Below, one piece after another: positions 41,447 to 54,847 of a stretch of 64,000 bases of DNA; within the stretch, counting starts at the first letter, position 1, and the number at the start of each line of letters is the position of its first letter. Origin of the DNA: Dissophora ornata (Eukaryota > Mortierellomycota > Mortierellomycetes > Mortierellales > Mortierellaceae); the NCBI GenBank assembly GCA_025201705.1, contig MU616625.1, forward strand, positions 1 through 64,000, given 5' to 3'. Both the position numbers and the translations under genes were made by a program. The notes below the pieces were generated by a model, which was given only the letters and a program-made list of their open reading frames with translations, searched no databases and was not told where the DNA came from.

Positions 41447-43944
41447 ATGGCAGACCAGGAACTCAGAGAACATGGGCGCGCTTTCGTCCGCTGGCTCGGA
41501 GCCCTCCCTTCCAATATTCCTCGTTACGCACAGGAACGCTTTCCAATCATAAGATGGTAGGTAAAGTTTTTTTTTCTCCTCATGGCCTTCCACCCCCACT
41601 CAGCGTTGGCTCGCGCTTTCTCATAGCTCAAAGGAGTGTATAACTGTAACACAATTAGGCTTCCGAAGTATAACAGACCATGGGCCATGAAAGACATTGT
41701 TGCTGGCATCACGGTCGGACTCATCGTGGTCCCTCAGGGGATGTCCTATGCCAAGGTCGCTGGCCTCCCCGTGCAGCATGGCCTCTACTCTGCGTATGTT
41801 GGTGCTATCTTTTACTGCTTCATGGGTACGTCCAAGGATCTCACGATTGGCCCCACAGCGGTGATCTCGTTGATCACAGGAGAACTTGTAGCACAGCTTG
41901 CAGATCAATATTCGGCAGCAGAGGTCGCAGGTATATCCTGTCTAGCAGTCGGAGGCCTTACTTTGATCATGGGCATACTTCAACTTGGGATCGTCCTCGA
42001 TTTTTTCCCCTCGACTGTACTAGTTGGGTATACTACCGGCGCGGCAGCAACCATAGTTATCTCTCAGATACCAAAATGGATTGGTGTCTCCGACATCAAT
42101 ACTCGCGAGCCAGCATATCTTGTATTGATCAACACTTTAAGAGCGCTTCCGACAATTTCATGGCTTGATTTGGTCTTTGGACTGACATCCATGCTGGGTC
42201 TTGTTGGCATTGGCTTTGTGGTCGATCGCTGTGGTCGAGGTCGGTTCCCGATCCAGCTAGTCAAGATCTCTCGCTTTTTTATCGTTACGGTACTGGCCAC
42301 TGCTTTCTCGTTCCTTGTCAACATCAACGCGCCCCTTGATGCAGACGGAAACACGGTCCCTCGGATCTCTATCCTAAAAACCGTTCCTAGTGGGCTACCC
42401 GCACCTCAGGCACCTCGGATAGATAGAGCTATTCTGGTAGAGATTGCGCCTAAATTGGTAGCGATTGCTCTCGCGACAATCTTGGAGCACATTGCAGTCG
42501 GAAAGGCCTTTGCACGCAAGAATCGGTACCAAATTGATGGCAACCAGGAGCTACTGACTCTGGGCCTCGCCAATGTCACAGCCTCGTTCTTTGGCGCGTA
42601 CACCGTTACGGGGTCGTTCTCACGATCCGCTGTTAAGTTCCAGTGCGGCGTCAAGACCCCCCTGGCTGGCCTTGTGACCGGAGCACTCGTCCTTCTGGCG
42701 CTACAGATGCTGACTCCACTGTAAGGATTTTTCATGTTTGCTCAAGATTTGGTCATGCATTCGCTTCCTGATAAGTCTGAAATGCTAATGGTCGCGTTGA
42801 ATTTAACATCCATGGTAGATTCTATTACATCCCCGATGCGGCGCTTTCTGCAGTCATTATAGTCGCCGTATCCAGTCTCATCAGTCTGCCTGACGTCTTT
42901 CTGGAGTTTTTCAATGTCAATCTTTGGGACTTTCTATCTTCACAGGTTGCGCTGTGGGCGACCCTGTTCGTATCTGTCGAGGTTGGGATCGCTTCTGGAG
43001 TGGGATTTTCACTTGCAGTACTGCTTTTTCGCGTGGCTCGTCCTCGATTCCGTCTCCTCCGACCACTTAGAACCCGACCTGACGTCTTTGTTGCGTCTAA
43101 ATACTATGCCAACAACATCTTGGACACCGTCAACTCACCGCCTGGAGTCCTTGTCTTCCGCATGGAGGAGTCTGCTACGTTTCCCAACATGGAGACCTTC
43201 AAGAACTGGGTTCAAGATGAAGTTTACAGACACACGAGGTTTGGTGGTTTCGTCAAGACTACCCAGGACAGGCTGTGGTCCGATGATCTAGAGATATATA
43301 TCCAACGGCTGCGAGCTCAAGAGGGTCGCGGTCATGCGTCTCTTTTACACTCAGCCTTTGAAGACAAGGACCTACCCTTCTTGCGCGGCGTCATTCTCGA
43401 CTGCTCTGCCATGAATAATATAGACAGTACAGGACTGCAGGGACTGCGGGACTTGAGAGAGAATCTGAGGGAGTATGCTGGCGCGAGCGATGACCCCAGC
43501 GTGTTTTTTGAGCTCCACTTTGTGGCTGTACAAGATGACGTGCTTCCAATTCTTGAGCTCTCCGGCCTGACAATACCCAACGGCGCTCCATCAAGTATAC
43601 CGCCGCGAAACGTCCAAATACTGAGCCGCGATATGAACAGCGCCGGTCCTCTCCGGTCTGGAGATTTTCAAGACGATATCACACACAGCCACGGACTTCT
43701 CAACAACCACAAACAATGGATGCCGTTGTCTTCGAGATCCTTGCGGGCGATAGGGTCTGTACCTTCGCTGAATTCAGTAGTTCACTTCACCATTCGTGAT
43801 GCTATTGACGTTGTTATGCTCCACGCAGAGGCATGGAGAGGAGTTGTTGACGAAGTAGTAGTAGCAATACGTGGAGCAGAGATTAGTAGCGCGGGTGACC
43901 TCTCATCCGACTCAGAGTCAGACTATAGCTCACTTCATAAGTAG
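41447..43944 (+). CDS. SulP-family sulfate permease with STAS domain
   Basis: Membrane anion transporter, most likely a plasma-membrane sulfate permease. Exons are 41447-41556, 41659-42720 and 42819-43944, giving 765 residues. The N-terminus reaches LPKYNRPWAMKDIVAGITVG, the SulP signature start. Multiple membrane helices follow, with conserved VPQGMSYAKVAGLPVQHGLY, GPTAVISLITGEL, GYTTGAAATIVISQIPK, NQELLTLGLANVTASFFGAY and GSFSRSAVKFQCG. A cytosolic STAS domain from about residue 490 contains GVILDCSAMNNIDSTGLQGL near 582. The C-terminal ~60 residues are Ser/Asp-rich. The family also moves molybdate, oxalate or bicarbonate, so the exact substrate is not proven. Confidence 0.93.
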
Positions 43945-44149: not shown

Positions 44150-45865
44150 TCAAAACATTGGCCGCGTGGAAGGATAAAGATATTCGAAAAAGGTCATGTC
44201 TGGTCTCACGCAGTTTGTCACTTTGACGGGCTCGACCTTATTCCATAGCTGGTCCAGCTCGTGAAGAGGAAGCTCCTGCACCTGCTCCAGTGTGCTTTGA
44301 CGTTTTGGGAGCTTTGGACGCGTAGGCGCCATCTTTGCTGGTTCTGAAAGAGCAGGCATGGCAGGCACGGTGGTCAATTGGCCTATGGAGTCCAGGTGAG
44401 CTGGATGGCAGATGTAAACCAGACGCTTTCCATCTTTTGCCGTCTTACCTATTGTTGCAGAGTGACAGAAACGAACGGTCAAAGATTTGCAGTCGCATGC
44501 GTCTCTCGCAAACTGCTTTTGAGGTGTACGAGACTTACTAAAGGAGATAAGGCCATAGAACGAGCACAATGCATGAGCAACAAATCGCAGGAATTGATCC
44601 TGAATATCCCATCGAAGGTAGATCTGGGGTCGTTCCACAGCTTGCTCCTGGGGCATCCCTAAGTCGTTTTCGTCTAAGGTCTTGCTTGCAGTTGACGACA
44701 GCTCAGGCTCGGCGTCCTCATTATCTAGGGCCTGGACGAAAACCCAGGTCGAATTTTCGGATTCGGACCTGCAGTCATCCAGGGAGGAATCGCTTTCGCC
44801 ATCTTGGCTGTTTTCGCTATCTTCCTCATCGTCGCTTGACAGTGTAAGCTGGTCCAAAAAGCTGACAAGCTCTCCTTCGTACTGCATCACAATCCCTTTA
44901 GGAACATGCACCTTCTTGATGTCTTTTCGCTGAGCTCTTGTCAACAGACGATGGCCAATCATCGGAGCAGTTGGTGCCGAAGGAGCGTCGCTTGCCAAGG
45001 AAGCATGTTCGGGCCTAGATCGTCTCGACGGAGGAGGGTTGTTGCTGATAAGGGATTCAATCATGGCATCATACTTCCAATGGAAGGAAGGGGCTTCTCG
45101 ATCATAGCCCGGGAAGGGCAAGTCGGCCTGGTACAGGACCGCGAAGGGATGGTGCACAAATTTGTCTAGAGTGGCGGAAAAGAAAATCCCATGGATATTG
45201 CCAAAGGCAAAAGGAAGGTGAGAATGGAGGCCAGTTGGTGCAGGGGCGAGGGGATGGAGTAAGAAGCAGCTCTACTGTTTGTTTGCTCTATGGCGGCTGG
45301 AACTGCTGCGGCTCGTGGCTGCGTCGTGCGACACGACTGCAACCCAGCATCCAAGTAAGAACTACAAGTTGGCTCGCTATTATCCATCCCACCCATCCCA
45401 TACTCTCGTCAGGCAGTCAACAACGACAGCGAGGTTTGTGGCCCCTCTCTTTTTTGCGTCTTCATGCCGGATCTTTGTTCGCACGTGTTTGGCCCATATC
45501 TTTCTCTCTCATTTTCGCAAGGGAAGCAGTAGGGACGAAACGACTTTAGGCCGAAAAGCCAACAAGATAAACCAGGACTTGCCATTGTCGTGTCGCTGGC
45601 GACGTCGACTGCCCTCCTGCCCAATCTTGTTGCGCTGGTTCAGAGAGTCTCGCTGAACCCACGGATAGTGCTTTTTCTTCTTCTTATTGTGGGTCCGCTG
45701 TTGCTGCTGTTCCTGTAGCAGAGCCGCAGCAGAGTCATTGTCGATAAGGGTGAGGGTTGCGTTGATAGTCCTTTCGAGGCTCTGCTGGTGCAGCTTCATG
45801 AGCGTGGCCTGGCTCTGGCCATGGATCGAGTGGCCGACGAGTGCTGGAAGAGGATGTCGCGCCAT
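44150..45865 (-). CDS. R3H-domain protein (R3HDM4-like, with R3H-associated N-terminal domain)
   Basis: Probable single-stranded nucleic-acid-binding protein. Exons in coding order: 45865-45583, 45165-44539 and 44448-44150, giving 402 residues. The N-terminus (TINATLTLIDNDSAAALLQE, then Gln/Lys-rich and RRRQRHDN) followed by HHPFAVLYQADLPFPGYD resembles the R3H-associated region of R3HDM4-type proteins. An acidic Ser/Asp/Glu stretch follows. The R3H core is DQFLRFVAHALCSFYGLISFS, with the R-x3-H signature near residue 290. The first intron has a GC donor (gcaagt). The second intron is 90 nt with no stop in frame, so its retention would insert 30 residues directly after the R3H core. Family assignment is moderate and function is unknown. 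Confidence 0.68.
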
Positions 45866-46234: not shown

Positions 46235-48755
46235 CTACGGATCTTGACGCAGGCAAGGTCCAGAGAGCGACCGCATCCTTTTGGACGGCGTCTGCACCCT
46301 GGCCTTGAATTCCCCTCGATCCTCTACAAAAGGCAAGAAGATCGCCTGTGGGCGGTGTGACAGCATCTTGTCGAGGATAGACTCCTGGATCTTGTTTGGC
46401 ACGATGTTCAAGAACATGGACCGGACAATGGCCTCTGACCATTTGTGTCCGCCGCTGAGTCGACCCATATGACGACTACCCTGCACTGCAGCCTTACCAA
46501 ACGCTGCCCGCTCCTTGTAGTACGCCTCAAACGTTGCTTGAATGTCCTGTGAGGACTTTGAGGGGATCTCATACAGCAAGTTGGCTAGGCTGACTGCATC
46601 TAGCATGGCCTGGGCTGCTCCCTAGTAGGTAGATCATTGGTACACAAGAGGATGAAAATGTTAACATTCGGCGAGGAACAGGCGTGATCCGCTGATACCA
46701 TACGGCTTATAAATGGACAATTCGCTACCTGTCTGTGGAGGGCACGGTTGACGTAGACAATTATCCGTTAGATGAGATGATCAATACCAGGCATTTCTTT
46801 AACGTTATCTCATAGTCGTTGTGTTTCTTACCCAGCATGAGGAACAACCTAATGATTTCATTGCATGGTACGGCATAGGTGTTGGGCGTGGAGTGTCGGA
46901 GTGAACGTTGTAGAAAGGGATGCAATTGCGAATGAGAACGAGAGTCAGAACACGTTGACTTTCTGTTATGATCGCCTAAACTGTTGTGTTTGTTGCTCAA
47001 CGTGTTGCACATGTGTTAGTCAGCATTTTTCATTTGTATACCTTGTGGCACGCTGCAGAGTGGACAGATACGGAAATATGGAAGAATGCGAGGTTAGACA
47101 GTGAGCGAGAAAATGGGCGAAGACGACACATTTCCTGTTATTCTTACCATCGCCCATTAGAACAGTACGTTGATGGTGCCATGTTTCGAAGAACTGGGCG
47201 AGTAAGGAAAAAAGATAAATAAATAAGGATGCAGCTCAGCTCAAGATTGTTTGCTTGGATGCAAGATTGTTTTCTTTGTATCCGTGGCATGCAGGCGGAA
47301 AGTGAAAACCATAATCACAAATATAGCCAAGACCCTGGTACAGATGCATGTGTGTGATTACCTTCTCTTCTAGCAAGACCTTTGATATTCTCTCCACGGG
47401 TGTATTATCAATCACATCTGCAAGGGTGCCACCGTATGGACAGGCAAAGCTCCTACAGGCGTCTGCCATCTCCTGTACTTGCATTGGACCCCAGTCTGAG
47501 GAGCGGATGTGGTGCTCCTGCCGGATTTGCGTCGTGGGCAGATTGTAAGTGACGCGCCAAGCGATTCTGTTATTGCGGAGAGGGATCAACCACCACTAAG
47601 ACATCATGTATTTCCCAGAAGCCAGATCAGACCATGAACAGATGCCGCACACTATCGTTTATAGCCTTATACAATACATGTTCGTACCGAGTATGGCTTG
47701 TCTTTACCAATGACGACCATCATGTCGCATGTGTCTCGAGTCAGGTCTGGAAAGTAGATCGGGTCAATCGGATCCGTAACACCTTTGTAGAGTACATGCG
47801 CAGAGTATGCCCCGAGAATGAGCATTAGTGATCGCAAAACCAATAAGGACCATGTTTAATAGTCGGAGGAAACACAGCAGTAAGGCACAGAGCGACTGAG
47901 CCCTGTCCACGGAGCTTTTGCACGTGCAACGGGCTTACCTACCTACTAGGCAATGGTGATCAAACGCAAGCGGCGCCATATCTGATTTGGGCAAGAGTTT
48001 GCTAATCCGAAGATCTCTGTAGAGACATCTCCGAACACATGAATAAGCTCCATCTGCGCCCACGAGGATATCGGCCGTGTAGTAACTGGTATCGGAACAT
48101 CTGACCAACACCCCGTCGTCGTTCTGTTCGATTTCACACACACGCTTTCCGGTAATGATCCTTTCTGGCGGGACCCTTGAAAGCAACAACCTGTAGAGCG
48201 ATGGTCGGTCCATGATTCTGTGCGGTTCAATAGAATGAACCCATTGATAGATCATCATTCAGTTCGTGAGCAATAAATCAAAACTACGCCTAGAGAAAGA
48301 GGTTAAAAGACAATTGATATACCTGCTATGATATCCATATCTGCTTGCAATCACAAAGACAAAAGGATACAGATAACGATACAGATGTCAGCTTTCCTTG
48401 CTGGTTTTGAAAACAAAAATAAAAATAAAAGGCGCACGCAGATCTTAGTTCACAATATTTACCGCAATGAATCTGAGTACAGATCGAGGGATCCTATCTT
48501 ATTCATGTTCTCTTTGAGAAAGGTCATGGAGCTGATCGGCTTGGAGATGGCTTCCAGCTCTGGCAAAATCCCAAGCTGTTCAAGCATGGGCTGGATGGCT
48601 TGATTTAAGGAGATACTGCTGCCCAGTGGGCTGAGCTCGCCAGCGTGCTTCTCGAGGATTGTGTAAGGAATGCCAGCCTGCTCTAGAAGGAGACCCAAAG
48701 TGAGGCCGCCCAGGCCTGCTCCCACGATCAGGACATTAAGTTCAGACGAGGCCAT
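46235..48755 (-). CDS. FAD-dependent monooxygenase with microexons
   Basis: Class A flavoprotein hydroxylase of the salicylate hydroxylase/zeaxanthin epoxidase superfamily; substrate unknown. Ten exons in coding order: 48755-48463, 48340-48323 (18 nt), 48217-47943, 47782-47688, 47595-47362, 47193-47148, 47052-47042 (11 nt), 46848-46832 (17 nt), 46732-46729 (4 nt) and 46621-46235, giving 459 residues. The N-terminal Rossmann motif is VLIVGAGLGGLTLGLLLEQ, with ILEKH ending the second strand. GADGAYS is the DG motif near residue 180. RTVLMGDACHKVVPHAGQGA is the FAD/ribityl-binding GD motif, assembled from five consecutive exons. All introns are GT-AG, and the microexons are required to keep frame and motif. 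Exon 2 has a tandem acceptor (aagcag), allowing an 18- or 21-nt form. No obvious N-terminal signal or membrane anchor is seen. Confidence 0.85.
46729..46732 (-). other. 4-nt microexon (ACAG) of the FAD monooxygenase
   Basis: On the minus strand CTCCACAG is followed by ACAG and then GTAGCG. Inserting these four bases completes the Gly codon left open by the 17-nt exon and adds the Gln of the conserved GQGA motif. It joins exactly in phase to GGAGCAGCC. Without it the last exon is out of frame and reaches a stop within a few codons. Confidence 0.75.
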
Positions 48756-49947: not shown

Positions 49948-51533
49948 TTATTCAACAACCACTGGCGCATATTCGCCCTCCTCTTCATATTCATCATCTT
50001 CGTCGCTGACAATCTCAACCACCTTCTGTATCTTTCTAAAGTCACCTGGGATTTTCCATTCAAAGTTCTCTAGAACCGCCTTTTGAAGTGTGTGCATCGG
50101 TTTGCGAAGCTCTAGGCACAGTCTGCGTCGCAATGCTGACTGGATGTTGCGTCCCATAGTCTTGAGCGCCTGCTCCAAAAAGTTCGCTGTCATGTCATCC
50201 TGATCAGGTGATGCGAAGAGTAGATCCATAAAGAAGCTGGACGGAATAGAGGTCAGCTGGTGATGAAGCGTCTGGATAAATTGTGAAAAGAGACGTGTGT
50301 AGTTTGGTGATGTGATCGCCTCGGAAGATTGGCACACAAGGATTGTCATCGTCTTCCACTGACGGAAGGCGCCAAGGTGATAACTCAGAAGCATCGTTAC
50401 AAACGCTGACTGGAACTCGCCAAGGAACGCATTAACATCTAAAGAGATGGGCAAAAAAAAAAAAAAGAGGTAGAAGAAACGACACGCTTAATATCAACCA
50501 TTCACCCATATCACTAAACTGTTGAATGGTAGAGTCCGCAGAAAACATATACACGTATACCTGACTTATAAATGGTTACGAGGAGGTTGTTCAGCAGCCA
50601 GCTCTTGTCAAGACTATATCTTGTCACCTCCTCTCCGACAGCACCTTTCCTGAACGAAGACCGAAGATCGATCGACGTGAATTCCACAGAGGTGCAGCTT
50701 TTGCTCGCCACTGATGGTGTTGCTATCGCCTTCGTGTCATAACCTGTTGTTATTTCTGTTTCCATTTCAACATGCTCTTCTTCTTGGATTGTATCTGTGG
50801 AACCCCTCTGCTGACGGTGCGAGTCTTCTGCCATGTCCTTCTTGTGCTTCTCTTCCTTTTGCTGTCGGTCAATGATCTTTGTGGCTCTCGATAGCTCCGC
50901 CTCCAGCTGATCATCATGCGAGTTGACAAAGCCGTCGGTTTTGAAAATCGAGTCGATGGTTGCTTTTGTTATGTGGTCTGTGAGTTTGACCCATGCTGGA
51001 TAAGTTGATTCAGGGGGTAGCAGCGGGTATGAACCGAGAAAGGGATCAAATTCCTGAATACCTAGAGATGCCATAATGTATGTCCCATCAGCTATCATAC
51101 AACGCGATCTAGACGCGAATAAGTTAATCAAATTCCGCTTCATACCTGCTTTGTACCTTGCGAGCTGGTCCTTGTCTTTCTCCAGCTCCATTTCTTCATT
51201 GTATGCGTTCCACTTCATAACCACTACCTCGCCGCTCTCGAATTGGTGCCAAAACCCGATCCTGACATCCCCGCCAGTGGTACCTCCCTCTGTGACCTCG
51301 AGAGTTCCATTGTCACTTGCCGGCACCTCATTGTTTGGCTGCGTGCTCTGCGTGTTGTGGAGTGAATAGTACACAAAGTGGACGCCTGGGGGAATGATCT
51401 TGATGCCCTTGAAGCGCGGTCCAGTGTTCCAGCAATTGACATCGATGCCAAACTCCAGTTGATTGTGGGGTGCATCGAGGACCAGGAGGATGGCTCCTGC
51501 GTTGAAAAGCCTTTTAAGAGTGTCGTTGTCCAT
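49948..51533 (-). CDS. AAR2: AAR2-type splicing factor
   Basis: Assembly chaperone of the U5 snRNP that holds Prp8 before Brr2 binds during cytoplasmic maturation. Exons in coding order are 51533-50561 and 50438-49948, giving 487 residues. N-terminal-domain motifs are TLKRLFNAGAILLVLDAP, LEFGIDVNCWNTGPRFKGIK, IPPGVHFVYYS and GFWHQFESGEVVVMKW. The C-terminal helical domain is recognised by YSLDKSWLLNNLL and EFQSAFVTMLLSYHLGAFRQ, followed by an acidic tail (SDEDDEYEEEGEY). A charged, unconserved linker of about 100 residues joins the domains. The frame stays open upstream to 51755, but family similarity starts at MDNDTLKR. The start codon lies 236 bases from the divergent methyltransferase start. 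Confidence 0.92.
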
Positions 51534-51769
51534 GAGGTTCGACTGGCATATGGATGCGAGGATGGGAGCATGCACATGTGGGCACAGCAACAGACGCAAT
51601 GGCCACCAAAAACAAAAGAACGTACACGCCACCGTACGTGTTTGGTTCGCAGTCGTGTTCAGCTCAACCAAACAAACATTTTTTTTTTCTCTTTTCTTGC
51701 CGTTGTTCACCTTTGGCCCTACACCGACAGTATCCGTTGACAGACACAGCGACATAGAGAGGGCCTGCC
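51534..51769. promoter_or_regulatory. Short divergent promoter of AAR2 and methyltransferase genes
   Basis: Two head-to-head start codons are separated by only 236 bases, so the genes probably share regulatory sequence. The middle holds a T-rich run near 51679-51690. No TATA box is evident. Confidence 0.5.
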
Positions 51770-53098
51770 ATGTATTACTATATCCGCCTGCTCAAGAATA
51801 CGCCTGTTGAGGCGGTGATCCAGGAGCCTTTCAAGTTGGTTTTCACCATCACCACAGATCTTACGGAGAAGTTCTATGACAAACCCTGCAAGCTCAGATG
51901 TCAGACCGTCGTCAGGACACCCTCTACCATCCCAGGCGCTACCGCAGCCGACACCATCATGACCATCATGTCTCAGGGACTCTCGCAAGGATATTCGCTC
52001 GATTACGATCCAAAGATTGGATATTGCTCAGTCGACATCCGCATGGCGCCTTGTATGACCCCCTACGATGAGTGCCAGATAGTCCTCAGTCTTGACCCTG
52101 CCCCATACACCGCCAACTATCCAGGCGCCAAGACCTTGGTCGAGCCTCCAGAGTACGAGATCTTGCCTGCGTGGTCTCTGCCCATTCAACTGAAGCCTGC
52201 GCCCTTAAACTTCTCGAAAAAGACTAAGCATCGCAAGGTCAACAAAAAGTACTTGACTGACACGAGGCAGGATCTAGTGGAGCGATACTTTCGACTACCA
52301 CCACATCTCACAGGAGCGCATGGGCGCGGTCGATCGCTCTTAGTCCGAGAGGATGCAAGAGAAGGGTTTATGGCTCGACATATCTGGGATTCGGGAGTGT
52401 TTATGACTAAATACCTGATGTTGGCAGATTCATGGCTCAGCAAGTACATGGAGGAGAGTCGGCAAAAAGGCACGGAGCAAAGGACAGTTGCTAGTGAAGA
52501 AAAGCCATTGGAGTCATCCCTGGCAGCCCTCTCTGTCTCAAATTCGTCGACACTGGAACAAAGCTCCATTTCATCAGGAATAGAAGCAACAGTAACAGAG
52601 GCGACCCCTGCCTCTACAGCCTCTTGCTCTTCCTCAACGCGTAGCCAGAGCCGTAAAAGAGTGTGCCTCGAGCTTGGAGCAGGGACAGGTCTTGTCGGTA
52701 TTGCCGTTGCAGTGGCGTTCCCGGAACTGAGTGTACTCTCGACAGATCTGGATGAGGCTTTGGCGTTGATGCAGCAAAATGTGGACGCCAACCAGGCACT
52801 GTTGCCCAATAACAACATGGAGGTTGGCTTCCTGGACTGGGCCGAGAAAGGTCGCAAGGTGGAACCTGTCGAGATCTTGTTGCTGGCAGACGTGGTCTAC
52901 AATGACCTATCGCACGAGTGCTTGCTGCAGACGATCCTGGACTACAGTGACGACAGGACAAAGGTGCTCCTGGGGTATAAATTTAGGCACGAGGCCGAGC
53001 AGCAGTTCTTTGAGCGGGCCAAGGAGTATTTTGATATTACAAATGTGCACCAGCAAGATACCATGCAGCTTTTTGTCTTGACGCGCAAGTCGAGCTAG
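51770..53098 (+). CDS. Putative protein-lysine methyltransferase (METTL21/family 16 type)
   Basis: Seven-beta-strand SAM-dependent methyltransferase. It is a single exon of 442 residues, starting MYYYIRLLKNTPVEAVIQEPFK. The N-terminal ~170 residues are an extra beta-rich region I do not recognise. The catalytic part starts with ARHIWDSGVFMTKYL, typical of the METTL21/VCPKMT group. Motif I LELGAGTGLVGIAVA lies near residue 302 and the acidic strand VLSTDLDEAL near 324. The post-motif LLLADVVYNDLSHECLL takes the place of the (D/E)xxY active-site motif. A Ser/Thr-rich insertion of ~65 residues precedes motif I. The family methylates lysines of chaperones, VCP or eEF1A; the target here is unknown. 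AATAAA at 53120 may end the transcript. Confidence 0.85.
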   Translation: MYYYIRLLKNTPVEAVIQEPFKLVFTITTDLTEKFYDKPCKLRCQTVVRTPSTIPGATAADTIMTIMSQGLSQGYSLDYDPKIGYCSVDIRMAPCMTPYDECQIVLSLDPAPYTANYPGAKTLVEPPEYEILPAWSLPIQLKPAPLNFSKKTKHRKVNKKYLTDTRQDLVERYFRLPPHLTGAHGRGRSLLVREDAREGFMARHIWDSGVFMTKYLMLADSWLSKYMEESRQKGTEQRTVASEEKPLESSLAALSVSNSSTLEQSSISSGIEATVTEATPASTASCSSSTRSQSRKRVCLELGAGTGLVGIAVAVAFPELSVLSTDLDEALALMQQNVDANQALLPNNNMEVGFLDWAEKGRKVEPVEILLLADVVYNDLSHECLLQTILDYSDDRTKVLLGYKFRHEAEQQFFERAKEYFDITNVHQQDTMQLFVLTRKSS

Positions 53099-53321
53099 AT
53101 GCGGTTCAAGGAGCATGCCAATAAAACCACGCAACTTTTGTTTTCCTGTGTAGTGACTTATCAGCATATGATTATTCGGGTTCCACACAGCCCTAATTCA
53201 AGTCCGCAGCCACTGTCTTGTCATAAACAGCCATATCGGTATAAGCTACGATCTCGCAGTTTTTGCAAATCGAGGCATCGCCATCGCCATCTCCATCTCA
53301 ACTCCCACATTCACTACAGGA

Positions 53322-54847
53322 ATGCCAGATCCTCAGCCACTCTCGAATCGCCAGCGCAAGATCAGAGAGCGCCAGGCCGAGCTCAACCGTGAACTGGCAG
53401 CCACAAAACGATCCGAAACCAGGACACCGTTTCGCGAGGCTGAGCTCCAGTTTCTCTCTCGACATCCACCACCAGACTACTCCAAGGCTTTGGACTTCCA
53501 GCAGCCTGCTGATGTTTTGTTGCGAAACACTAAAATTAAACAGGTCCCGCTACGAAAGCGAATCTGCGAGTTTTCAGAGCTGTTTGGAGTCAAAGATAAC
53601 GAACCGGATAGGGATCAGCTAGAGTTCGCGTATCTCCATGAGGACCACCCAGGCATGATCTATATTCCTGCAGCATTCACACCATCGGCCCAACGAATGC
53701 TTATCAAAGCCTGTCTCAAGGAGTATTCACGACATCCCAACAAGTGTAATCTGGATACACACTATCTTGTTCCTGACAGCGGGCTCTGGGACCTGCATGA
53801 GAATGTGTTTGCAGGAAAGCAAACCCTGGAGGACCCCAACATCTATGTCCAAAGAAAGGCAAACATAGACGAATACGCTGACGGCTACGGATCCGACGAT
53901 GACGATGGCGAAGATGGTAGCAATGATGGTAGCTCGGGAGGCAAGTCAAAAACAGAGCAGCTACCCAAGAAACTCCCAAAATCCGTCATACCATCCGTTA
54001 GGACCCTGGTCCCAATTTCAGACGGGACACCTACTGTACCAGACAATGTATGCAAGGAAGACCCAGAGCCGTCAACCCAGGTGCCCATCTTACCCCCGGC
54101 ACAGCTCCTGCGCAAAATGCGATGGATCACACTGGGCTATCAGTATCATTGGCCCTCAAAGACATATCACTTTGATCAGAACGCGCCTTTCCCATCAGAA
54201 CTCTCAGTTCTGTCCAAAGCCGTTGTTGAGGCTGTTGATGGTGTGGGGCCTTATCCGTACGCTGCAGATGATTTCGTAGCGGAGGCTGGCGTGATAAATT
54301 ATTATCAGCTCAAGGACAGGTTGATGGGGCATGTGGATCGTAGTGAACTGAACAAGGATGCACCGCTGGTATCGTTCAGGTAAATATGCAAAATTGCATT
54401 TGGACAACGGGCCCCTAGACTATGGCGCTAACCCTGCATTTGCTAGCTTTGGACATTCATGCATTTACCTTTTAGGAGGGTCCACACGAGAGACGGCCCC
54501 CACCCCTATTCTGCTTCAGAGCGGAGATATCCTCATCATGACTGGACCCTGTCGATCCGCGTTCCATGGTATGGTGGCACGAAAGGAATTAAAGCTCGCT
54601 GGACCTATGGATTGACAGGAGATGGACTAACCCCTCTATTTCTTATCCTTCAACAGGCGTGCCGAGAATTATCGAAGGCACTCTCCCAGTATATCTTCAG
54701 GCCCTACCCGACGAGCCGGAATGGGATATTTATACCGATTATCTAACTGAAGCTCGCATCAACCTCAACATTCGTCAAGTATACCCGCCCCAGCGCCTTC
54801 CATCGCCGTCTCCTGCCCCCCTCCTGAATAGATCAAAGAACAGCTGA
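53322..54847 (+). CDS. ALKBH1: AlkB-homologue 2-oxoglutarate/Fe(II) dioxygenase (ALKBH1 type)
   Basis: Nucleic-acid demethylase of the AlkB superfamily; ALKBH1 acts on tRNA and DNA methyl adducts. Exons are 53322-54379, 54447-54568 and 54657-54847, giving 456 residues. RWITLGYQYHWPSKTYHF and INYYQLKDRLMGHVDRSE supply the HxD iron ligands. LVSFSFGHSCIYLLGG precedes the distal iron-binding His in SAFHGVPRI, and INLNIRQV provides the 2-oxoglutarate-binding Arg pair. An acidic, Ser/Gly-rich insertion near residues 185-210 splits the N-terminal half. The stop lies 65 bases from that of the convergent regulator gene. Substrate preference cannot be read from the sequence. Confidence 0.92.

Follow-up and report, generated by a model that had tools for sequence, protein, structure and literature searches.

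Is a conserved cofactor-binding motif truly spliced together from exons of only a few nucleotides? The question is raised by a gene on the minus strand, at 48755-46235, of the first 64,000 nt (the window) of contig MU616625.1 of Dissophora ornata (Mortierellaceae; assembly GCA_025201705.1). An earlier note on this DNA had placed a monooxygenase gene with microexons within 46622..48462, an interval that the true extent of the gene exceeds. The best explanation, and most probably the right one, is an intact gene for a class A flavoprotein monooxygenase, with its GD segment GDACHKVVPHAGQG spliced from exons of 46, 11, 17, 4 and 387 nt. The microexons are very probably real and conserved, judging from sequence: the structure of the gene, its non-random fit to orthologues, the footprint of the exons in orthologue annotations, and an 11-nt exon that recurs in paralogues (in many as 11+22 nt, in one as 11+17+5 nt).

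Gene Structure and Protein Identity

Ten exons of 293, 18, 275, 95, 234, 46, 11, 17, 4 and 387 nt were joined into 1380 nt, i.e., 460 codons including the stop, which is the count that the earlier note had given. All nine introns were GT-AG and 92-193 nt in length. The lengths and flanks first described for the 46-nt exon (47193-47148, ending in GGCGATG) and for the 11-nt, 17-nt and 4-nt exons between AG and GT were exact, and the 18-nt exon reported upstream was located at 48340-48323. Intron positions are written as codon and phase, numbered on the codons of the D. ornata gene, so that 321.1 is codon 321, phase 1. Exons 1 to 5 and 10 rest on the gene model and orthologue spliced alignment, exon 2 also on orthologue gaps; the support for the others is given in brackets.

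48463..48755, minus strand: exon 1, 293 nt, with the ATG start and the FAD-binding motif GAGLGG
48323..48340, minus strand: exon 2, 18-nt microexon ATATGGATATCATAGCAG, encoding RYGYHS
47943..48217, minus strand: exon 3, 275 nt, with the DG motif (GADGAYS)
47688..47782, minus strand: exon 4, 95 nt
47362..47595, minus strand: exon 5, 234 nt
47148..47193, minus strand: exon 6, 46 nt, 3' end GGC GAT G of the GD motif (gene model, orthologue and paralogue-type queries)
47053..47147, minus strand: intron 6, 95 nt, 321.1, at the same position in 13 of 20 paralogue loci
47042..47052, minus strand: exon 7, 11-nt microexon CGTGCCACAAG, finishing the A codon and encoding C-H-K (gene model, alignments, shuffles, genome pattern)
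46849..47041, minus strand: intron 7, 193 nt, 324.0, at the same position in 10 of 20 paralogue loci, single-copy in the genome search
46832..46848, minus strand: exon 8, 17-nt microexon GTTGTTCCTCATGCTGG, encoding VVPHAG (gene model, alignments, shuffles; identical borders in paralogue locus L065)
46733..46831, minus strand: intron 8, 99 nt, 330.2, a position common to L065
46729..46732, minus strand: exon 9, 4-nt microexon ACAG, finishing the G codon and encoding Q (gene model, alignments, shuffles, frameshift in Entomortierella parvispora)
46622..46728, minus strand: intron 9, 107 nt, 331.0 (gene model)
46235..46621, minus strand: exon 10, 387 nt, from GAAQAM.. through the stop

The predicted protein is a class A flavoprotein monooxygenase. 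It matched Pfam PF01494 (FAD_binding_3; FAD, flavin adenine dinucleotide) over residues 6-379 with 104.7 bits against a cut-off of 22 (E 8e-30), and the GXGXXG, DG and GD motifs, as defined in PMC5611651, could all be read in the model as GAGLGG, GADGAYS and GDACHK. The GD motif of group A flavin monooxygenases touches the riboflavin part of FAD (PMC5611651). Sequence matches were headed by 6-hydroxynicotinate 3-monooxygenase, whose GDACHPMKPHMAQGA aligns with the microexon-coded stretch. An AlphaFold2 model of the orthologue P0002, folded in place of the D. ornata protein itself, had a predicted local distance difference test score (pLDDT) of 87.6 and a predicted template modeling score (pTM) of 0.90; it matched TrlE, HpxO and 3-hydroxybenzoate 6-hydroxylase (E 1.6e-27 to 3.4e-27), and its top PDB folds were FAD monooxygenases. 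When 40 out of 65 homologues, chosen because they carry the motif, were aligned, the A, H and K of exon 7 and the last G of exon 8 were invariant, partly as a result of that choice. The flavoprotein hydroxylase with a GD...GQGA motif proposed in the earlier note is borne out as an intact gene in which ultra-short exons divide the motif without disturbing the frame.

On sequence, the 11-nt and 4-nt exons would belong to the conserved coding microexons (internal, ≤15 nt, canonical sites, frame-essential), while the 17-nt and 18-nt exons count as microexons only under the wider limits in use (30-51 nt). Computed loss of exon 6, 7, 8 or 9 singly cut the protein at 322-344 residues (344 without the 11-nt exon, 336 without the 4-nt exon). 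The frame was kept on omitting exon 2 (18 nt), exons 6+7, exons 8+9 (21 nt) or exons 6-9 (78 nt). Since the loss of exon 6, 7, 8 or 9 alone breaks the frame, and frame-neutral losses delete conserved motif residues, we infer that the microexons are included constitutively. That a 4-nt exon lies near the lower limit of the spliceosome, as had been suggested, does not hold, for 1-nt exons are published from Arabidopsis (PMC8831610) and Fusarium (PMC12940212).

Statistical Support for the Microexons

A spliced-alignment program (BLOSUM62, GT-AG introns of at least 40 nt, very short exons permitted unless wholly within one codon) recovered the exon chain with four orthologous proteins, P0002 (Lobosporangium), P0003 (Gamsiella) and P0004 and P0008 (Linnemannia), at intron penalties of 10 and 20. 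The sole deviation was that P0002 took an exon-2 acceptor 3 nt upstream. With GC donors allowed and a minimum intron of 20, 40 or 60 nt, exons 6-9 came out as 46, 11, 17 and 4 nt with all seven queries, including the paralogue-type proteins P0038 (44% identity) and P0081 (39%); the chain ends and the exon-2 acceptor were variable in this run, and P0036 was too short for exons 1-3. Exon 2 is preceded by a tandem acceptor, AAGCAG (48341-48346, minus strand), and the Lobosporangium P0002 and Haplosporangium P0007 proteins have an extra serine there, as if the upstream AG were used.

When the interior of the stretch from exon 6 to exon 10 (517 bases) was shuffled with dinucleotides preserved, the observed score was never reached (0 of 2000 shuffles at each of four intron penalties). 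Masking single acceptors lowered the best score from 234 to 208 for the 11-nt exon, 205 for the 17-nt exon and 224 for the 4-nt exon. The D. ornata sequence thus supports the microexon cluster strongly and the 4-nt exon alone moderately.

Footprint in the Gene Models of Other Species

Homologues were the best 120 of at least 3080 database matches, the candidates for which were capped in number. Orthologues were drawn from P0001-P0036 (identity ≥58%), from which P0031 and P0033 (40-41%) were dropped, leaving 34 listed orthologues. The motif segment was complete in five of these. Exons 8+9 (7 residues) were exactly absent in 10 and exons 6-9 (26 residues) in 17, while P0001 read through the exon-6 donor (GDGKNNRK) and P0026 continued as VRHKQCW.. 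after VVPHAG, i.e., with exon 8 joined to exon 10. The motif was therefore incomplete or garbled in 29 of 34, with gaps precisely at microexon borders in 27. Exon 2 was complete in 16, exactly absent (6 residues) in 13 and within a larger absence in five. Because these gaps fall on exact exon borders, the same intron places are indicated in many genera, and because the missing exon groups are frame-neutral, annotation programs probably drop them unnoticed.

The odd tail of P0026, from E. parvispora, was examined more closely. Read one base earlier, this tail can encode GAAQAMLDAVSLANVLYELPSVSPSSIQATFESYYKERV (GAAQAMLDAVSLAN..), with a score of 164 (192 being the highest possible) against a typed reference resembling an orthologue, compared with 41 for the other shift and a mean of 20 (maximum 60) for 300 shuffled tails. 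Divided by three, the length of the missing piece leaves a remainder of 1, as for a 4-nt exon, and the tail is what a join of exon 8 to exon 10 would give. Outside the D. ornata genome, no other evidence for the 17/4 split is as good as this protein record.

The same gaps could be read as biology, the frame-neutral losses (exons 8+9, exons 6-9 or exon 2) being real isoforms without a working FAD site that serve as a regulatory off-state. The omitted groups are precisely frame-neutral, one of the two motif skips occurs in 27 of the 34 listed orthologues, and a glucose-dependent 20-nt microexon switch is known from Xlr2 of Trichoderma (PMC11121469). We consider this unlikely. Records of the same species conflict, Gamsiella P0003 being full and P0014 skipped, and Linnemannia elongata P0008 full and P0012 and P0028 skipped (strains may differ); such conflicts are expected because predictors cannot place tiny exons. 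Moreover, P0001 and P0026 look like plain model errors, and the skips delete motif residues kept in all five full orthologues. Loss in annotation, rather than in the cell, is the preferred reading of these gaps. Some paralogue models appear to fall into the same trap: among the other 86 listed homologues, P0031, P0052, P0099, P0106 and P0119 were without exactly 11 residues (33 nt) after GD, and P0096 without nine. The D. ornata proteins P0081, on locus L056, and P0093, on L068, fitted gap-free, so the 11-nt exon is present in some paralogue annotations.

Recurrence of the 11-nt Exon in the D. ornata Genome

A search of the D. ornata genome (31.4 Mb, 968 contigs) gave 125 exon matches to the monooxygenase family. 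From these 55 family loci were listed, 20 of which were fetched whole and spliced-aligned with GC donors allowed. Introns recurred in the 20 loci at 98.2 (10 loci), 227.0 (17), 321.1 (13), 324.0 (10), 332.1 (8) and 390.0 (12).

The pattern of the 11-nt exon with its splice dinucleotides, AGCNTGYCAYAARGT, encoding (G)A-C-H-K, had 32 matches genome-wide against one for the reversed pattern; the uninterrupted coding form GAYGCNTGYCAYAAR had 11 against a control of two. The gene's own match included, 29 of the 32 lay 49-1083 nt downstream of a same-strand family exon, in a check that drew on 39 of the 125 exon matches. Contig C602, with a contiguous GEACHK, was dropped from the 11-nt set. The 30 other pattern loci showed 11+22 nt in 14, 11 nt and a long exon in 12, and 11+17+5 nt in one; the remainder were an irregular 11+25 nt in L075 and two without assignment, C222 (L071, at a contig end) and C265 (L077). 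A GD-type donor was found upstream at 24 of the 30, some fetched pieces being short.

The 11+17+5 locus, L065 (G000:C152 near 48.56-48.95 kb, plus strand), carries a second triple array, CGTGCCACAAG (11 nt), AGTGTGCCATTTGGAGG (17 nt) and ACAAG (5 nt), the 5-nt exon having a GC donor. At L067 (G000:C131, minus strand) the intron before the 11-nt exon also begins with GC (GGAGATG followed by gcaagt), and exons of 11 and 22 nt follow; an apparent 1-nt exon seen there was an artefact of barring GC donors. Several paralogue alignments had tiny exons at their ends, which were regarded as noise.

A tree of 24 rows was weakly resolved, with nine of 21 inner branches open; it implied seven changes, and as few occurred in 116 of 500 shuffles. 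Its labels are outdated, L065, L067 and L071 being marked "other" despite their 11-nt pattern, and three orthologue proteins "11nt" from the protein only. The coarse point alone was used, that the 11-nt exon occurs in separated parts of the tree.

The irregular L075 (G000:C31 near 36.5 kb, minus strand), in which the 11-nt exon is followed by one of 25 nt, is possibly a decaying paralogue or uses a different splice site. Several family members are clustered on each of contigs C31, C173, C433, C492, C224 and C131, which suggests local gene duplication.

History of the Introns

Some of the splits appear to be old and others extra in the D. ornata gene. Because 321.1 and 324.0 recur in paralogues, and 27 other loci resolve with an 11-nt exon, this exon is older than the D. 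ornata gene. Introns 104.2, 196.1, 305.0 and 331.0, which delimit the 18-nt exon, the 46-nt exon and the 3' edge of the 4-nt exon, were not seen at any of the 20 paralogue loci aligned from this genome and look specific to this orthologue group. Intron 330.2 was common to one paralogue of 20, L065, and intron 331.0 lies one base from 332.1 (eight of 20), as if it had slid from there. A 33-nt exon or an 11+22 pair may have been in place before much of the paralogue spread, the 22-nt part being split later into 17 and 4 or 5 nt in the D. ornata gene and L065. The repeated intron gain that the earlier note had proposed is accordingly upheld in part: it fits the four positions that look specific to this orthologue group and fails for the 11-nt exon.

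These four positions are also what would be expected if introner-like mobile introns had recently inserted into this gene to form the array, a scenario that seems barely credible and is already mostly refuted. Introns 7 and 8+9, those searched, matched only themselves in the genome at E 0.001, with no near-identical copies. Moreover, 98.2, 227.0, 321.1, 324.0 and 330.2 are common to at least one paralogue, and since orthologue gaps fall at the borders 104.2, 305.0 and 331.0, these splits predate the divergence of the genera.

Splice Sites and a Proposed Splicing Order

In the family loci, introns preceding the 11-nt exon were ordinary, with a median of 112 nt (n=23) against 104 nt in controls (n=47) and a pyrimidine fraction of 0.67 against 0.65. 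Splice-site strengthening around the 11-nt exon was sought in these loci and not found: the donor before it was not weaker than controls (4.83 matches, n=23, p 0.59), and the donor after it was weaker (3.82 of 6 matches, n=28, vs 4.70, n=47; p 1.5e-4). A small weight matrix was built from 54 control introns, none of them >250 nt, taken from 12 of the 20 paralogue loci. On it the donors of introns 6, 7, 8 and 9 of the D. ornata gene stood at the 94th, 24th, 56th and 11th percentile, stronger and weaker by turns in the same sense as around the 11-nt exon of the family loci.

With flanking introns as short as 92-193 nt, each would be recognized across the intron. The two sites around the 4-nt exon could not be occupied simultaneously, so that neighboring introns would have to be excised successively. 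Introns 6 and 8, with strong donors, would probably go first, fusing each tiny exon to its upstream neighbor, and the weaker donors of introns 7 and 9 would be left to a second step.

A bolder proposal, which we put forward tentatively and consider rather doubtful, is that an entire enzyme family of the Mortierellaceae is spliced by way of tandem microexons at the FAD motif, constitutively included as 11+22, 11+17+5 or 11+17+4 nt, with the order written in alternating strong and weak donors, each tiny exon first fused upstream and the 4-5-nt exons acting almost as recursive-splicing stations. If true, some 28 genes in one genome would make a comparative system for how an intron-defining spliceosome deals with exons too short to see.

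Points Against the Exon Model

Several observations weigh against the structure and order set out above. The acceptor of intron 8, before the 4-nt exon, scored under all 54 control acceptors, and that before the 11-nt exon stood at their 6th percentile; the acceptors of introns 3 and 4 were as low as these weak microexon acceptors. The splicing order is hypothetical, drawn from donor match counts only. At six of the 30 pattern loci the 330 nt upstream, or as much of them as the fetched piece contained, showed no GD-type donor. Outside the D. ornata gene the 17/4 split is backed only by one E. parvispora protein and the 17/5 of L065, and in most other species only the 21- or 78-nt loss is visible. 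The two D. ornata database models depart from the structure: P0001 (identity 95% when matched to the full query, 98% by multiple alignment) is without exons 7-9, and P0006 (90% and 100%) without exon 2 and exons 6-9. When the interval between exons 8 and 10 was shuffled alone, the observed score was reached in 31, 28, 24 and 22 of 5000 shuffles at the four penalties, i.e., the 4-nt exon alone matches by chance about once per 160-230 shuffles. Masking its acceptor cost only 10 points, the best replacement being a 7-nt exon that adds one residue.

These last numbers, with the weak acceptor, are what would favor a chance origin, in which ACAG and perhaps other tiny exons are random matches in a long intron and the gene is decayed, a pseudogene, or differently joined. 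This is very improbable. No shuffle of the whole interval attained the score of the cluster, which fell heavily when the 11-nt or 17-nt acceptor was masked. The exons also have their footprint in other species and recur in paralogues, and the 460-codon frame is open and ~85% identical to proteins of other genera. The pseudogene reading was rejected on the same grounds, and the intact, microexon-spliced monooxygenase gene remains the preferred reading.

Comparison With Known Systems

Ultra-short motif exons are themselves already established, in plants (PMC8831610; PMC11096116) and, since 2026, in a Fusarium P450 (PMC12940212). What is new is the tandem array, the different states that it takes among members of a single paralogue family in an early-diverging fungus, and how widely it is misannotated. 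A literature search returned no paper on microexons in Mortierellomycota among the matches listed, subscription journals being thinly covered; a Mortierella paper uses "microexon" as a read-mapper option (PMC4462047).

A close relative is the 1-nt exon of Fusarium CYP621A, reported for 20 orthologous genes and backed by SRA reads (Nelson and Syed, 2026; PMC12940212). Like the D. ornata gene, it is a fungal monooxygenase with an ultra-short exon in a conserved motif that annotation misses, and in both the exon was found via the frame, with an intronless relative as support in Fusarium. Unlike that single exon, those predicted from sequence in the D. ornata gene comprise three adjacent tiny ones and one of 18 nt, and the 11-nt exon has counterparts at 27 other loci resolved in the same genome. 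Cytochrome P450s of Phanerochaete chrysosporium are likewise fungal monooxygenases with frequent tiny exons, the shortest 6 bp; in contrast, they are heme enzymes, and their tiny exons are described as spread over families rather than tied to one motif (PMC1184071). The 20-nt microexon of Trichoderma Xlr2, conserved in fungi and absent from the Joint Genome Institute (JGI) model, is comparable in being missed, but is a regulated switch in a transcription factor (PMC11121469).

Among the conserved microexons of plants are 9-nt exons in the AP2 and invertase families and, in rice, one of 4 nt (Yu et al., 2022; PMC8831610). As in D. ornata, plant exons of 1-15 nt code for core motifs, occur in gene families and are often misannotated, although that survey rests on RNA-seq and its main text never uses the word fungi (PMC8831610). 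Adjacent microexons of 5 and 12 nt in plant Peptidase M1 are a parallel in arrangement, with fused forms in other algae interpreted as gradual intronization (PMC11096116); they are two exons in one gene, whereas D. ornata has 11+22, 11+17+4 and 11+17+5 arrays across a family. The present case would add a fungal lineage that diverged early, and a paralogue family of large size, to the known range of conserved motif-coding microexons. As the 33-nt, 11+22 and 11+17+4/5 states coexist in one genome, the splitting and merging of microexons and the order of splicing would be directly testable. A practical hazard is that frame-neutral exon groups let annotation pipelines silently delete cofactor-site residues.

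Neighboring Genes in the Window

An open reading frame (ORF) at 50514-51791 on the minus strand carries the AAR2 domains PF20981 and PF05282. AAR2 is a spliceosomal U5 assembly factor, and its nearness to the microexon gene is probably a coincidence. Plus-strand neighbors within 41627-43944, 51758-53098 and 53172-54383 encode a sulfate permease with a STAS domain (two exon-like ORFs), a Methyltransf_16 protein and a 2OG-Fe(II) oxygenase, which we take to be AlkB-like. Next to the monooxygenase gene, a minus-strand ORF at 44150-45271 has no Pfam match. By eye, a sequence resembling it could be seen joined to the orthologue in P0020 of Mortierella sp. NVP85; two gene models have probably been merged there, which points to a gene order that is conserved.

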